Positions 28,588-36,400 of a stretch of 64,000 nt of DNA are shown piece by piece. The position numbers and the translations under genes were made by a program. The stretch comes from Bdellovibrio bacteriovorus W (GTDB lineage: Bacteria; Bdellovibrionota; Bdellovibrionia; Bdellovibrionales; Bdellovibrionaceae), in the NCBI GenBank assembly GCA_000525675.1, contig CP002190.1:62001-126000 (forward strand). The letters run 5' to 3'. Below the pieces are notes generated by a model that saw nothing but the letters and a program-made list of their open reading frames with translations, was not told the origin of the DNA and did not search any database. Position 1 is the stretch's first letter, and each line of letters begins with the position of its first letter.

Positions 28588-28701
28588 CGACGACTCCTTA
28601 TCAAGAGTGTTTTACACCTGCCTTATAGAGGACTTAGGTTGCAGTCGTCGTGCCACTTGGTTTTGATCTCAAATGAAAATGAGGGGAGTTAGAGGGGAAA
28701 T

Positions 28702-28735
28702 AAAAAAGGCTCTGTCGAACAGAGCCTTTTTAGGT
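28702..28735 (-). terminator. Terminator of the hit/Tad transcript
   Basis: Perfect stem AAAAAGGCTCTGT/ACAGAGCCTTTTT around loop CGA, with T-run on the minus strand, lies about 35 bases after the bd0108-like stop. Confidence 0.9.
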
Positions 28736-28766: not shown

Positions 28767-29065
28767 CTAGCGAGTCCCCGTTTTTGTGCTTCCAGCTCCT
28801 TCAGAGCTACCAGAACCCGAGGAACCAGCAGGGCGATACGTTGTATCGTCTCCAAGGCGTGTGTGCTTCATGCGTGCGATACACTCAGGACAAACTCCAG
28901 GAGCTGCAACATCTGCCTCAGAGGGCTTCCTGTGCGAGCCTCGTTAGGGTCTTCCCCTGGGTTTACAGTTCTTTTTGAGTCATCTGCGGCTTGAGAAAAT
29001 CCCACGGAGGGGGCCATGAGAGCTGCTGAGAAGGCGAAAGCTAGAATAAGAAATAGATTTTTCAC
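28767..29065 (-). pseudogene. bd0108-like host-interaction (hit) protein gene with one-base frameshift
   Basis: A GTG start at 29065 (AGGAG eight bases upstream) encodes a signal peptide (KNLFLILAFAFSAALMAPSV, then GFSQA) and the mature start ADDSKRTVNPGEDPNEARTG. At about 28922-28930 the frame changes. The continued frame gives a hydrophobic, unlikely tail and stops at 28868. The frame reached by adding one base reads KPSEADVAAPGVCPECIARM, then KHTRLGDDTTYRPAGSSG, a Gly/Ser-rich tail and TAG at 28767-28769. The gene length of 299 bases becomes 300 if one base is restored, giving 99 residues, close to Bd0108 of B. bacteriovorus. Position directly after a YD-repeat gene and the Tad cluster matches bd0109/bd0108. 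Identity to Bd0108 is by size, signal and synteny, not alignment. Confidence 0.75.
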
Positions 29066-29079
29066 TTAAAGCTTCTCCT

Positions 29080-30735
29080 TTATAAATACATCTCTGCCGT
29101 TGCCGGAGCGATGATATCTAAGAGGTTATTAAAAGTACTCGCAACTTGCATAGCCACAGAAGGGCCTTCTTTACTATCGACTTTATTGATCTCGCCGTTG
29201 GCTTTATAGCTTACGACGATCGTTCCCAATCCAGGACGTGTCACAATGGAAGGTTTTCCATAGCGTTCCTCGTATTGAATGCGAACCACTTTCTTAGCTT
29301 GATCCGTAATCGTCGCGATACGCCCTCTATTATCGTAAGTCATGTTTATTTTTTGGCCATCACTATTTTGAGCAAATGTAAGATTTCCCTTGCCGTCATA
29401 CTTGAAGGCTGTGTTTTTAACGGAAACCTTAGCTCCTTTCTCATTAAAATAGGTGCTGGAGACCGACGTTACTTTTTTGATTTGTGGATCATATTGATAC
29501 GCCATACGCACGTTAGGTGCTGCTTTAACTTTTACGAGACCATCAGGGTAATACTCGTAGGCAATACGATCTGAATTGCGGCGAATAGAAGTCGGCTTGC
29601 CAAAGACCGGATGATAAGTGATGTCCGTGACATTTCCATTAACGCTCGTCATCACGCGGTGAAGGTAGTATTGACCATCTGCGCGTTGTTGATGCCAAAA
29701 CTCATACTTATTTTCAGCGACTACCTCAGCGCCACAAGTCTTTTTCACTGTAGACCAGTAGTGATTGCGTGGATCATTTTGCGAAAACTCATAACCGTAG
29801 TTTTCCACACACTTGTCCCGATCCGTAAACGCAATGACCCAGTCATTCTTTTTATCGTACTTGATAGCTACAAAAGTTTTATCTGGCCATGTCGCCTTTG
29901 TCAGATTGTGAAGCTCGTCATATTCGTAGGTATAAGTCTTTAACCATGCGTTCTTTACCGAGGATAGGTCGTCTAGGTTTGCGAACTTATACTCTGCCAT
30001 AAGGCCATTAGGACCTGTGATTGAACGAATTTTCTTATTTTGGTAGTACTTAAATCCAAGGCGACGGCCATTATTATCCTGGATACTCGCGATGGAATCC
30101 TTATCGTATTCGAACTTCAGATAGTTATTATTCTTATCATAGATATGAGTCATCTTGCCCTGAAGGTTAAAGCGCTGCGCACTGCCGTCGGGAAGATTTC
30201 TCGTATAATAAGTTTTATTAAAGACAAAGTGTTCAACTTCTTTGCCGTTGGCAAAAAAGCGAGTGCCTTCTTTAACAGGCACAGTGATTCCATATTGAGA
30301 GGCCATCTCAGAGCGAACGTTATCGTCTTCTAATAATTGCGAGCGCAAATTTTTAATATAAGCTTCTGTAATGCCAACTTTTTTCTCGGCACGAAGTTTA
30401 CCAATGATTTGGCTGATGGTGTTGTCGATATCTTTGCGTGTAACTTCACGTGGAGAGAAAGTCACCTCTAGACCGCCACCACATTCTTTAACTTTGATAT
30501 TACCTTCGGCATTTACTTCCATCGAAGTTTCAAAGTCAGAACACCAGCCAAAGCCGAACATACCGTTAAATAGAGAACGACTATTATATGTTCTTACAAT
30601 TTTAAGATCGTACCCAGTTCCGGGTACATCCATATCAATCCAAGTATTTGAATAATTGGCATTTTTCATATCCACAAGAGCATGGGCTTGTGTTGAAAGA
30701 AGGAGAGCAAATGCCACAAACGCTTTTTTCATCAT
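29080..30735 (-). CDS. Secreted YD-repeat (RHS-like) protein, Bd0109-like
   Basis: The 551-residue protein has a signal peptide (about 1-20, ending HALV). An RHS-type N-terminal element follows (TYNSRSLFNGMFGFGWCSDFE), then about ten YD repeats (for example NNNYLKFEYDKD, LKTYTYEYDELHNLTKATWP, VRMAYQYDPQ). It lacks the C-terminal toxin of large RHS effectors. In B. bacteriovorus the corresponding gene bd0109 encodes a secreted YD-repeat protein that binds Bd0108 and is linked to pilus control and prey-independent growth. The gene lies 29 bases after the TadB-like gene and 14 bases before the hit gene, in one operon. Confidence 0.85.
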   Translation of the reverse strand: MMKKAFVAFALLLSTQAHALVDMKNANYSNTWIDMDVPGTGYDLKIVRTYNSRSLFNGMFGFGWCSDFETSMEVNAEGNIKVKECGGGLEVTFSPREVTRKDIDNTISQIIGKLRAEKKVGITEAYIKNLRSQLLEDDNVRSEMASQYGITVPVKEGTRFFANGKEVEHFVFNKTYYTRNLPDGSAQRFNLQGKMTHIYDKNNNYLKFEYDKDSIASIQDNNGRRLGFKYYQNKKIRSITGPNGLMAEYKFANLDDLSSVKNAWLKTYTYEYDELHNLTKATWPDKTFVAIKYDKKNDWVIAFTDRDKCVENYGYEFSQNDPRNHYWSTVKKTCGAEVVAENKYEFWHQQRADGQYYLHRVMTSVNGNVTDITYHPVFGKPTSIRRNSDRIAYEYYPDGLVKVKAAPNVRMAYQYDPQIKKVTSVSSTYFNEKGAKVSVKNTAFKYDGKGNLTFAQNSDGQKINMTYDNRGRIATITDQAKKVVRIQYEERYGKPSIVTRPGLGTIVVSYKANGEINKVDSKEGPSVAMQVASTFNNLLDIIAPATAEMYL

Positions 30736-30764: not shown

Positions 30765-31640
30765 CTACACTTTAATGGTAACAACTTTTTTAATAACTAC
30801 GCCACCGATAACTTGTAAGCCGATCATTCCCATCATTAACACTAGACCAAGGGTTGTGCTAAACATTGGCTTAATGTAAGCGGGGTCGATTAAAAAGAAA
30901 ACACCGAGCAAGACGAAAGGAATAAGCGTCACGATTATCCCTTGCATCATCCCCTGTGCGGTCAAAGCTTGAATCTTTTTTTCAACTTTTTGTCTTTCGC
31001 GAATAACGATTACGATGGTTTGAAATGTTTCAGCTAAGTTTCCACCGGTCTCTTTTAGAATATTGATAGAGCTAACAAACATCTGAACATCAGGACGTGG
31101 AATGCGTTCGCTCAAGTCATTAAGAGCACTCTCAAAACTATCACCGACTTGCATTTGGTAAAGCACTTGAGAAAATTCCTGACGAATCGGATTGTTCATA
31201 ATCTCCACGACACGTTTCATGGACTCTTGTGGATTAGAACCGGCTTTAATTCCGTTCGCCATGATTGTCAGTCCGTCGACCATCTGATCGACAAACTTCG
31301 TGCAGCGATTGTTATAGAGAGTTTTTACTAAGAGTAGTGGCAAGTGCCAACCGGCAACAGTGATGCTGGCTCCGATAACTATTCCAGGAAGAACGTTCGG
31401 CCATAAAGCTAGGAACATCAAAGCTCCCAAGCCAAAGCTCATGAGTAGCATTAAGATGGTGATCTTTTTTTCTTCAACCTCAACACCCATGATGCGCAGA
31501 ATTTTTAGAACTTCATCGCGCTTACCAAGGCTTTTTTTGTGTAACCATGTGATAGACTTTTCAGCCCATAACATGACAATTATGAAAACACAGAGACCAA
31601 ATAGTGGGACTAGTACCCATTCATTCATTAAAAAGTTCAT
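30765..31640 (-). CDS. tadB: TadB-like inner-membrane protein of the Flp pilus (T2SSF domain)
   Basis: This polytopic protein forms the inner-membrane platform with the TadA/CpaF ATPase. The 291-residue protein has an N-terminal helix (10-27), two helices at about 63-103 and two near the C-terminus. The T2SSF domain lies between them (VDQMVDGLTIMANGIKAG, GDSFESALNDLSERIP, ETGGNLAETFQTIV). Tad systems normally have TadB and TadC; only this one is found here. The gene starts 3 bases after the CpaE-CpaF fusion gene. Confidence 0.88.
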   Translation of the reverse strand: MNFLMNEWVLVPLFGLCVFIIVMLWAEKSITWLHKKSLGKRDEVLKILRIMGVEVEEKKITILMLLMSFGLGALMFLALWPNVLPGIVIGASITVAGWHLPLLLVKTLYNNRCTKFVDQMVDGLTIMANGIKAGSNPQESMKRVVEIMNNPIRQEFSQVLYQMQVGDSFESALNDLSERIPRPDVQMFVSSINILKETGGNLAETFQTIVIVIRERQKVEKKIQALTAQGMMQGIIVTLIPFVLLGVFFLIDPAYIKPMFSTTLGLVLMMGMIGLQVIGGVVIKKVVTIKV

Positions 31641-31643
31641 AGA

Positions 31644-33869
31644 TTACCCTGACTTCTTAACGCCGCCGATACCTGGCATTTTTGGAATACCCGCCATCGG
31701 TTGTTTAGCTGCTGGATTTGCTCCTGGTGCGGCCGGTGCGCCTGCAGTCGGATCATTGGCAAAAATTTCGCGAGGAATAACAACGCCCTTATCGCTGAGT
31801 TTCTGAATGAAACTAGGAATTGTACCAGTGGCTTGGAAGACGCCTTGAATTTTTCGATTCTTATCGTATCCCGTTTCTTTAAATCTAAAGACTTCAGCGA
31901 GAGTGACAACGTCACCCTGCATACCTGCAACTTCAGTGATGCTTAGGATTTTACGTGTTCCATCAGACAGACGAGAAATCTGAACAATCAAGTTTACAGC
32001 GCCAGCGATCTGCTCACGAATAGCGCGCACAGGGAGATCCATTCCTGCCATCATACAAAGAGTCTCTAGACGCGCAATACACTCTCTTGGAGAGTTGGCG
32101 TGAGTGGTTGTCATAGAGCCATCATGGCCCGTATTCATGGCCTGAAGCATATCAAGGGCGGCGCCATCACGACACTCACCGACGATAATTCTATCGGGAC
32201 GCATACGCAGGGCATTTTTAATCAGATCACGAATAGAGACAGCATTATTTCCCTCCATCGAAGGAGGGCGTGTTTCAAGGCGTACGACGTGCTCCTGCTG
32301 TAGTTGTAGCTCGGCCGCATCCTCGACGGTGATAACACGTTCGTTGGTAGGGATATAAGAAGATAGCATATTTAAGAGTGATGTTTTACCTGAACCAGTA
32401 CCACCCGAGATGACGACGTTAAGGCCGTTCTCTACACAGATGCGCAAGAAGTCGATCATATTTTTAGTTACACTGCCAAATGCGATATACTTATCTGCAG
32501 TGATACCGCCTTTTTTAAACTTACGTATAGTAAGGGCAGGACCATCAATTGCGAGAGGCTCAATCACGGCATTCACACGCGATCCATCTTTAAGGCGGGC
32601 ATCGACGTACGGAGTGGAGTCATTGATCTGGCGACCTAGAGGAGTCACAATCCGTTCGATAATCCGACGAAGATGATCGTTAGATGTGAAGGTCACTGGA
32701 CTTAGTTGGACTTTTCCACTTTTCTCGACAAAGATTTTTCTAAATCCATTAACCATGATCTCTGAGACATCGTTATCTGCTAAGAGATCTTCAAGAGGGC
32801 CCAAACCAAGAGCCTCTTCTAAAACTTCTTTGATAAGTTTAGAACGCTCTTCTCTTGGGGTGTCGGGAGATTCCCGATCCACGATTTGTGTAATTTCTCG
32901 TTTGGTTTTTTCGCGAACTTCTTTCTCTTTGTTCTCGTCTTGTTTCGTATCAACTAAAAGCTTTTTTAAATCCACCGTGCGAATCAATTCGTTATGAATG
33001 CGAATCTTTAAAAGAGTTCTAGAGTCCATACCACTTGTGGCAAGAGTGGCGCCATCTCCAGATCCCGTTGCGGCTGCCTCAGCAACCACTGGTTTAGGGC
33101 GAGCGATTGTTTTTAGACGCTGAAGAATGCCGCCAGTAAGCTTTCTAGCGGTGTCGTAATAGGCGGCAGTCACAGGCGCTTTGGGGGCTGCTAAAACAAA
33201 AGGTGTGTACTTTTGTAAGGCCATCATTGATGTTGGCTCATCCTGTGGAATGAGTCCTAATATAGGAAGTTGTAACTGATTCGAAATTGTCTGCGGAGAA
33301 AGACCTGTTGGTGAAGCTTTATTAATAACTAGCTGGAACATATCGCGTGGAAATGTTGCTGAAAGCAGCTCGTTGATCAGACGCTGTGTTTGAGTCACAA
33401 CTAAAACTTCCGGGCTAGTCACAATCACAATAGCAGTGGCTTCTTGAAGAACTGCCATTTGCGCCGGGCCTAAATCAGTTCCAATATCTACAACCATGAA
33501 CTTAAACGCACGACTGAAAAACTCTAAGAGCTTTCCTAGAAGATCGGGAGAGATATTGAGTGATTCTTCAGGTCCACGCACAGCTCCTAAATAGGCAAGC
33601 CCCGAGGTGTGCATAGTGACTAGTGAATTCATTGGTTGAGAATTTAAAGAACCTTGAAATCCTGCAAGTTCTTTAAGAGTTTTCTGTGGCTTAAGTCCCA
33701 TGATGACGTTTTGATCGCCAACGCTTTTGGAGTCAGCATCAATTAGCAGAACTTGAGAGCGAAGTTCATTCATTAGGGTGCAGGCGAAGTTTGCGGCAAA
33801 AACACTTTTACCAACTCCACCCTTACCACCGACGACTGCGATAAGATTACAATTAGGATTAATAGCCAA
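31644..33869 (-). CDS. Fused CpaE (TadZ) - CpaF (TadA) ATPase of the Flp pilus
   Basis: The 741-residue protein starts at TTG 33869, with GGAGG six bases upstream. Residues 1-245 are a ParA/MinD-type ATPase (deviant Walker A GGKGGVGKS, Walker B-like VLLIDAD and FMVVDIG), as in CpaE/TadZ localisation factors. A linker rich in Ala follows, then from about 285 a full CpaF/TadA secretion ATPase: an N-terminal helical domain, SGGTGSGKTSLLN (Walker A), RMRPDRIIVGECRD (Walker B) and TGHDGSMTTTHANSP (His box). The end is a Pro/Ala/Gly-rich tail. The two are normally separate proteins. The frame is continuous and both Walker A motifs are intact. Confidence 0.93.
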   Translation of the reverse strand: MAINPNCNLIAVVGGKGGVGKSVFAANFACTLMNELRSQVLLIDADSKSVGDQNVIMGLKPQKTLKELAGFQGSLNSQPMNSLVTMHTSGLAYLGAVRGPEESLNISPDLLGKLLEFFSRAFKFMVVDIGTDLGPAQMAVLQEATAIVIVTSPEVLVVTQTQRLINELLSATFPRDMFQLVINKASPTGLSPQTISNQLQLPILGLIPQDEPTSMMALQKYTPFVLAAPKAPVTAAYYDTARKLTGGILQRLKTIARPKPVVAEAAATGSGDGATLATSGMDSRTLLKIRIHNELIRTVDLKKLLVDTKQDENKEKEVREKTKREITQIVDRESPDTPREERSKLIKEVLEEALGLGPLEDLLADNDVSEIMVNGFRKIFVEKSGKVQLSPVTFTSNDHLRRIIERIVTPLGRQINDSTPYVDARLKDGSRVNAVIEPLAIDGPALTIRKFKKGGITADKYIAFGSVTKNMIDFLRICVENGLNVVISGGTGSGKTSLLNMLSSYIPTNERVITVEDAAELQLQQEHVVRLETRPPSMEGNNAVSIRDLIKNALRMRPDRIIVGECRDGAALDMLQAMNTGHDGSMTTTHANSPRECIARLETLCMMAGMDLPVRAIREQIAGAVNLIVQISRLSDGTRKILSITEVAGMQGDVVTLAEVFRFKETGYDKNRKIQGVFQATGTIPSFIQKLSDKGVVIPREIFANDPTAGAPAAPGANPAAKQPMAGIPKMPGIGGVKKSG

Positions 33870-33922
33870 TGAAGACCTCCAATCCCCTTATCGGTTGATT
33901 AGAGAGGTCCCATTACGAGGCG

Positions 33923-35452
33923 TTAGTCTCGTAAACGGAACTTCTTCTTAATTTGCTCAGCCCCTGAGCTTGCTGAAGTCTTAACAATCGGTGTGACAAA
34001 GACGACGAACTGACTTTGTTGTTTATTGAAGTTCTTAGAGGCATAAAGGGAAATAATCGGATTTACAACCCCTTTAGGGAGGCGGTTGTAGCCTGTAGAA
34101 GTCGAGTTACGAATCAAGCCACCCACAGCAGCACTTTGGCGGTCGCGGACGGTGATTGTACTCGTCATCTGATTCTTGCTGACAATCGGCTGGCCGGTGT
34201 CTGTATTACCAACCATACTGCTGATCTCAAAGGACATTTCCATGTGAACGCTTCCGGACTTTTCACCTAAAAGAGCAGGTGTAATTCCAGTGACAATGCC
34301 CACTGGAACGAAAGCTGTTCCTTGGCCATCTTTTGTAATCACGGAGTAAGGCTGATCAGTCACTTGGCGGATTTCTCCACGCTTACCATCTTCAACAATC
34401 AATGAAGTGCTCTCAAGAACACGGGCATGACCATGGGTTTTTGCCCAATTCAATTTAGGAAGAAGGTTAGAGACTGTTCCCGTTAGTGAGGAAACTAAAC
34501 CCCCGGCTCCACTGCCGCCAGTCTGGAATGACATCTGGGAGTTATCACCCAGCTCAGGAGTGAACTGGAAACGGAATGTCTTAGAGTAGTCTTTATTAAG
34601 TTCCACATAGTGAACGACGAGTTGGATCATCTTAGCTGGTGGCTTAGGAGCCGCTGCTTTGATTTGAATCAAGTTGATGACACCATCATTTTGTGGACGA
34701 CGTTTTTTAATAGGTCCACCATCTTCAGCCGCATCGACGACGATATCTGGCAAATAGGTTTTAGCGATGATTTCAGCTCTTGCAGATTCGTCTTCGCTAT
34801 TGGCCCATCCTTGTAGAATGATTTTTTCATTCACCGCCCGAACTTCGATTTCAGGATTGTTGATATCTCTAGCAATAAACTCTGCAATCTTCTTTTGGGC
34901 TAAAGGTGATAGTGTCACAAGCGAAGAGGCTTGATCCCCAAATTGTTTAACGACGTTAAAGATACGCGCTAAATCTTTTGGCAAAAGAATTTGACCATCT
35001 ACGACAACTTTGTTGTTTACGATTTTAATATTAATGCCTTCAATGTCACCCAGTAGAGCGCGCATTTCGCGAACCACTTTATCGAGTTTGCTTTTTTTGA
35101 CGTCGATACGGAACTCAGCGACGACTTTGCCATTGCGTTTATCGTGGATTGTGAGGGTGGCGAAACCTTCGGATTTTGGATTGAAACGAATGATATTTAA
35201 GTCTTTTGCATAAGAGGCTGTAACGATCTTTCTAAAGTCGCCTTTAAACTCAATGCTATCAGGTAAAGGCGGAAGTTTTTCATCGTGCTCAATACCAAGA
35301 GTTAAATTAATAAATTTACGGGAGCGATAAACACCCGTCATCTCATCTGCTACGGCAGAAGATGGCTCTGCGACCAACTCTTCTTGTGCAAGAGCTGGAG
35401 CTGATAGGACAAAGCAGCTAGCAAGTGCTAATCCTAAAATCGTGTTTTTCAT
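33923..35452 (-). CDS. cpaC: CpaC/RcpA secretin of the Flp pilus
   Basis: It forms the outer-membrane channel for the pilus. From ATG 35452 (GGGGGAT upstream) the protein has 509 residues and a signal peptide (MKNTILGLALASCFVLSAPA). The N-terminal region has the pilus secretin domain and a BON-like segment (about 100-240). The C-terminal half carries the secretin core (VVHYVELNKDYSKTF, then VPVGIVTGITPALLGEKSG and VGGLIRNSTSTGYNRLP). CpaC is normal in length. The gene lies between cpaB and the fused ATPase gene. Confidence 0.93.
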   Translation of the reverse strand: MKNTILGLALASCFVLSAPALAQEELVAEPSSAVADEMTGVYRSRKFINLTLGIEHDEKLPPLPDSIEFKGDFRKIVTASYAKDLNIIRFNPKSEGFATLTIHDKRNGKVVAEFRIDVKKSKLDKVVREMRALLGDIEGINIKIVNNKVVVDGQILLPKDLARIFNVVKQFGDQASSLVTLSPLAQKKIAEFIARDINNPEIEVRAVNEKIILQGWANSEDESARAEIIAKTYLPDIVVDAAEDGGPIKKRRPQNDGVINLIQIKAAAPKPPAKMIQLVVHYVELNKDYSKTFRFQFTPELGDNSQMSFQTGGSGAGGLVSSLTGTVSNLLPKLNWAKTHGHARVLESTSLIVEDGKRGEIRQVTDQPYSVITKDGQGTAFVPVGIVTGITPALLGEKSGSVHMEMSFEISSMVGNTDTGQPIVSKNQMTSTITVRDRQSAAVGGLIRNSTSTGYNRLPKGVVNPIISLYASKNFNKQQSQFVVFVTPIVKTSASSGAEQIKKKFRLRD

Positions 35453-35482
35453 GCGATCCCCCTTATCTCCCCACATAGCGAC

Positions 35483-36400
35483 CTACAGAGTTTGAAATCC
35501 ATTACCAGCTGGACGCGAAGGTGGAGGTGCAGTTCTTTGTGGTTGTGGTGGCGGCGCCATAGGGCGCGGAGGCATCACTGGTGGTGCCATTGCGGGCGGA
35601 CCACCTCCATCTAAAGAAACTACAGGTTTTCCAACAATTGAATCAGATGTTGAGCTTGGCATTCTGGGCGGTACGGTTCTGTCATTTGGATTACGTAGCG
35701 CAAAGAATAAGTTTCCTGGTGCTGTTGAGAGAATATAGAATAAATCTTGCGCCTCTTTAGGAGTCGCCTCAACTGTGATAGTTGTATATTTCGTATCTCC
35801 CGTTAGGGCGATTTGTGTAAGATTTTTTCCCGTTGAATCCAGTTCAAACATACGTGGAATATTATTCACAACACTCACGCCTGTAGCTAAGACTACGACG
35901 TCAGACATCATGGTGAAAACTTCACGTCGTTGATTCATTCCGCGGCCCGCATCGACAGCTGCGAAGATATCCACGCGATCGCCAGGGCGAATCAGCTTTG
36001 CAACACCACGTACTTCATCAACAGGGATCGTGATAGCCCGCTTGCTTGGAGCAACCTGTAAAGCGATCCCCGTATCAGGGCCTGGAGTAAGGAGATTATT
36101 TTTTAGAACCATCTGTCCTTTACGAATAGGCACCGCTGCAACGTTCCCGATGATTTCATCCGGAATAGTGATAGCATCGGGTTGAATAAAGTCTGCAGGC
36201 AATTCGCGAGTTTCAACCATAGTGTCATAGATGGTTTGCATCTCAGCGATATCTTCTTTGGCAACGACGACACGTTTAGTGGAACCAAAGCGTTTATCGT
36301 ACTCTGCCTTTTTTTCTTGGGAATAGCTGTATAGAAGGAAGGTCGCAAAGATACCTGCTGCAATCGAGAGCCATAAATTTCTAGTTTCATTCGATCCCAT
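35483..36400 (-). CDS. cpaB: CpaB/RcpC SAF-domain pilus assembly protein
   Basis: The 305-residue protein has an N-terminal membrane helix (about 9-25), then an SAF domain (residues 43-110, VVVAKEDIAEMQTIYDTMV, PIRKGQMVLKNNLL) and the RcpC/CpaB domain (VRGVAKLIRPGDRVDIFA, then YTTITVEATPKEAQDLFYIL). The last 60 residues are proline-rich. CpaB sits in the periplasm and helps the secretin. The stop is 30 bases before the cpaC start, in the same operon. Confidence 0.9.
   Translation of the reverse strand: MGSNETRNLWLSIAAGIFATFLLYSYSQEKKAEYDKRFGSTKRVVVAKEDIAEMQTIYDTMVETRELPADFIQPDAITIPDEIIGNVAAVPIRKGQMVLKNNLLTPGPDTGIALQVAPSKRAITIPVDEVRGVAKLIRPGDRVDIFAAVDAGRGMNQRREVFTMMSDVVVLATGVSVVNNIPRMFELDSTGKNLTQIALTGDTKYTTITVEATPKEAQDLFYILSTAPGNLFFALRNPNDRTVPPRMPSSTSDSIVGKPVVSLDGGGPPAMAPPVMPPRPMAPPPQPQRTAPPPSRPAGNGFQTL

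Follow-up and report, generated by a model that had tools for sequence, protein, structure and literature searches.

The hit (host-interaction) gene of Bdellovibrio bacteriovorus W, the homologue of bd0108, carries a very recent frameshift in the deposited genome sequence, and the culture of W that was sequenced probably consisted of, or included, a host-independent derivative. Since spontaneous frameshifts in bd0108 are the classic host-independent mutation, such a derivative of W is the likeliest source of this sequence. The window analysed here comprises 64,000 nucleotides of contig CP002190.1, with a GC content of 42.5-43.5%. The W genome is a single contig of 3,006,992 bp, the size also listed, with a GC content of 43.3%, in Table 2 of PMC7137782. 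At 3.0 Mb it is the smallest of the genus save for one fragmented 2.9-Mb assembly, and it is rated 99.96% complete. This small size reflects either a real reduction or missing accessory regions.

The hit gene is read on the minus strand from a GTG codon at 29065-29063, and this frame (frame A) closes after 65 codons (Table 1). Following the conserved SKRTVNPGEDPNEAR, the product ends with about 17-20 residues that have no counterpart in the relatives. The conserved second half, KPSEADVAAPGVCPECIARMKHTRLGDDTTYRP to the terminal GTR and its stop at 28767, is encoded in the other frame, which is interrupted by a TAA at 28946-28944 and open from there to the TAG ending at 28767. Frame A fits the relatives up to VNPGEDPNEAR (28957-28934), while the other frame fits them from KPSEADVAA, with SEA beginning at 28922. 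As the TAA closes the other frame upstream, the frame change must lie beyond it, and the matches to NEAR in one frame and from SEAD in the other place it at about 28938-28922. The original prediction had put it near 28915-28935, close to this interval, and its coordinates and both frames, including the in-frame TAA and the stop, were recovered when the sequence was read again. A shift of -1 rejoins the two frames; the restored length of 99 residues that had been predicted is consistent with that of the relatives (78-119 residues, mostly 90-108). In the notation used for host-independent alleles, the lesion is roughly "46+19", with ~46 native residues followed by 19 foreign ones. Of the family features, the segment that follows the signal peptide (NPGEDPNEA) is present, and the CXXC motif and low-complexity C-terminal tail are absent from the translated product. 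Since both are encoded out of frame, the W hit gene is a broken member of the family, and the deposited sequence thus contains a loss-of-function lesion in the bd0108 homologue. The interval holding the change has no homopolymer of at least four bases, no repeat unit and no -1 slippery heptamer, and a phase-variable repeat at the shift site was therefore dropped. No start codon with a ribosome site of its own was seen for the second half, and separate initiation was likewise dropped. The start codon itself is GTG in W versus ATG in all 30 relatives. In strain HD100, known host-independent lesions include a change of the start codon alone (HID13, ATG to ATA), so the GTG start of W might lower the expression of hit.

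Table 1. Features at and around the hit locus of strain W (positions in the window)
Feature	Position	Strand	Description
hit ORF as deposited	28868..29065	-	GTG start, signal-peptide-like N-terminus, conserved SKRTVNPGEDPNEA, then foreign residues; 65 aa
Out-of-frame second half of hit	28767..28943	-	KPSEADVAAPGVCPECIARMKHTRLGDDTTYRPAGSSGSGSSEGAGSTKTGTR followed by a stop; CXXC and Gly/Ser-rich tail
Interval holding the frame change	28922..28938	-	Between NEAR (frame A) and SEAD (other frame)
bd0109 homologue	29080..30735	-	551 aa, DUF6531 and RHS/YD repeats, intact; partner gene of hit
Tad/Flp (type IVb) pilus operon genes, upstream	30765..36400	-	Frames intact; identity by synteny with bd0110-bd0114 (PMC4267844)
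Intrinsic terminator-like hairpin after hit	28701..28730	-	AAAAGGCTCTGTTCGACAGAGCCTTTTTT; read directly from the sequence

The assignment to bd0108, proposed in the original prediction, is borne out by the comparison with 30 relatives and by conserved synteny, with Bd0109 and the Tad/Flp operon as neighbours. The hit gene stands directly downstream of the bd0109 homologue, on the same strand and at the end of the operon, and the W Bd0109 protein is 79-87% identical to its counterparts in the genus. For the comparison, Bd0109-encoding loci were taken from GTDB species contigs and from 24 genomes of the genus, the sequence that follows Bd0109 was translated in each, and six records common to both sets were removed, leaving 30 distinct relatives. 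All of them possess a single continuous ORF at this place, starting with ATG, and the 65-residue form, whose presence in close relatives would have counted against the original prediction, occurs in 0 of the 30. The closest relative at the shift site (L020) reads NEAQGGKPSEADVAAPGVCPECIARMKHGRLGDNTTYRP, and the out-of-frame half of the W gene is nearly identical to that of another relative (G021) across 28 codons. Judged from this near-identity and from the continuous ORF of all the relatives, the two-frame structure is far beyond chance.

NPG.D.NEA-like residues are found in most of the relatives, and CXXC is kept in 29 of the 30. The exception (L033, genome G010) is the most divergent member of the genus and has a small, secreted, Gly/Ser-rich ORF directly after Bd0109, in which GCPGGGC replaces CXXC. 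Strain SKB1291214 reportedly lacks Bd0108, and this reported absence may reflect divergence instead. As for W itself, Prehna et al. (2014; PMC4267844) described its Bd0108 homologue as devoid of the C-terminal region and of conservation around CXXC, in remarks that name no frameshift. The frameshift accounts for these remarks, as the missing half, including CPEC, is present out of frame, and W therefore ceases to be an exception to the conservation of CXXC among Bd0108 proteins. The loss of the sole stated exception strengthens the case that a redox-type CXXC matters to the predation switch.

The second half still bears the mark of selection in its old frame. Over the 28 codons past the break, the nonsynonymous/synonymous ratio against seven relatives is 0.07-0.22, with synonymous sites near saturation in these comparisons, and is no higher than the 0.15-0.31 of pairs of intact relatives. 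The low ratio points to normal purifying selection until very recently, and thus to a very recent frameshift. Such a pattern is what should be expected of a mutation of laboratory age or of a sequence error, whereas a long-lived truncation should have decayed.

An error of sequencing or assembly in a draft-like genome, with an intact hit gene in strain W, is the main rival explanation. It gains from the selection on the second half, which looks as in intact relatives, as if nothing had happened, and from the history of the assembly: W (CP002190 / GCF_000525675.1, 3.007 Mb) was left out of RefSeq for being too small, preliminary reports described an unclosed assembly, and its sequencing details could not be found (PMC11656739). 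This undocumented, unclosed state was counted against the derivative reading. The frameshift background was sampled in stretches of the W assembly by tblastn with the ORFs of two related genomes, both in about 164 kb surrounding the window, where the best set comprised 76 genes (66 kb), and in a further 200 kb drawn from seven places, with 120 genes (113 kb). These add up to about 196 conserved genes with 179 kb of coding sequence, in which no other frameshift was found and hit was the only gene split; the other genes flagged proved on inspection to be paralogues, over-extended start assignments or the programmed frameshift of prfB. The latter gene, encoding release factor 2 (L087, 15250-15900; about 1,056.3-1,056.9 kb in the W genome), apparently has the usual in-frame stop and programmed frameshift site, as in G021. 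Zero events in about 179 kb give a rough 95% upper bound of ~0.005 chance events per 300-bp gene. General assembly decay was accordingly dropped, and random sequencing error is unlikely. An error would moreover have arisen at a site without a homopolymer of at least four bases and by chance in exactly the gene most noted for mutating during axenic growth, and we consider this explanation rather improbable.

Alternatively, the short form might be a stable and real trait, with predatory, cyst-forming W living with a truncated Bd0108 and being naturally facultative or using the short form. Prehna et al. (PMC4267844) remarked on both the short W homologue and the special resting-cell development of W, the N-terminal Bd0109-binding segment is retained, and naturally dual-mode strains exist (Tiberius, PMC3539863), though with intact bd0108. 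However, the out-of-frame half exhibits no relaxed selection, and the form is absent from 30 of 30 relatives, which makes a stable trait unlikely in our view. There is only a slim chance that, more specifically, a naturally facultative W lost its switch gene outside the laboratory, in connection with resting-cyst development, its short Bd0108 still binding Bd0109. Programmed ribosomal frameshifting could in principle yield the full protein, the needed shift being -1 and one X XXY YYZ heptamer (AAACCCA) standing upstream in the right register. From this heptamer, however, the new frame first reaches the TAA at 28946-28944, the needed interval holds no slippery site, and no relative frameshifts here. 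With the only in-register heptamer upstream of the intervening stop, this mechanism is very unlikely, with next to no probability in our estimate, and was dropped.

The derivative reading relies on the known biology of hit and on the low background of errors. In HD100, Bd0108 is secreted, small and disordered, and its residues 24-66 bind Bd0109. The pair adjusts the extrusion and retraction of pili, and cells that have lost Bd0108 can grow without prey (PMC3818213, PMC4267844). Spontaneous host-independent isolates carry frameshifts, point mutations and deletions all along bd0108, and frameshifts throughout the gene are the standard lesion (PMC3818213, PMC11323537, PMC4267844), as in isolates HID6 and HID18 (PMC3818213) and in the alleles "fs 33+4", "35+2" and "73+35" (PMC11323537); the "46+19" of W falls within their range. 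Complementation of a bd0108 frameshift strain restored prey dependence, bd0108 loss alone results in Type I growth, and other routes to host independence exist (PMC11323537). In W, a recent single-base change would have knocked out the C-terminal half of hit, leaving at most a 65-residue secreted remnant. This remnant is predicted to keep a segment matching part of the Bd0109-binding N-terminal region and to lose the CXXC helix and the C-terminal tail. By analogy with HD100, loss of Bd0108 would unbalance the Bd0108-Bd0109 control of pilus extrusion and retraction and generate a growth signal without prey. As axenic growth of Bdellovibrio always selects such mutants, the sequenced culture probably was, or contained, a host-independent derivative. 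Both the presence of the base change in the DNA, and not just in the assembly, and the host independence of the culture are inferred. The original prediction had gone as far as suggesting a host-independent derivative: its gene identity and frameshift are supported, and its interpretation is plausible.

Companion lesions in rhlB, pcnB, fliL and motA were looked for and dropped, the four homologues being full length with open frames of normal length. The rhlB and pcnB frames are similar in length to those of an HD100-like genome and of close relatives, with no length-altering second-site lesion. MotA/ExbB genes number seven in W versus nine in the HD100-like genome. For robust (Type II) growth without prey, a second lesion is usually required. 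Host independence, if present in W, would thus act via hit alone or via other loci; the four intact genes were counted against a derivative, although Type I growth does not require a second lesion. That the literature treats W as a periplasmic predator was counted in the same way. W has served as one of the main diversity references for Bdellovibrio and has been taken as wild-type. If this reference is indeed a prey-independent derivative, neither its predation gene content nor its Bd0108 should be read as wild-type.

The W frameshift adds another example to a known class of mutations and serves as a useful caution on a reference genome. The W gene shares with HD100 Bd0108, a lifestyle-switch protein of 101 residues that is intrinsically disordered, the signal peptide, the NPGEDPNEA segment, CXXC, the low-complexity tail and the synteny, and differs from it in being broken and in its GTG start. 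The truncated W homologue noted by Prehna et al. 2014 (PMC4267844) is this very gene, its missing half now found out of frame. Lastly, the host-independent HD100 alleles HID6, HID18, MHI39, MHI179 and MHI353 affect the same gene, beside bd0109 and the Tad/Flp operon, by small indels that result in a premature or altered C-terminus. The W allele and its site differ from these, and it belongs to another species-level lineage, with about 66% average amino-acid identity to HD100 (PMC7137782), where it is found in a deposited reference genome that carries no phenotype record.
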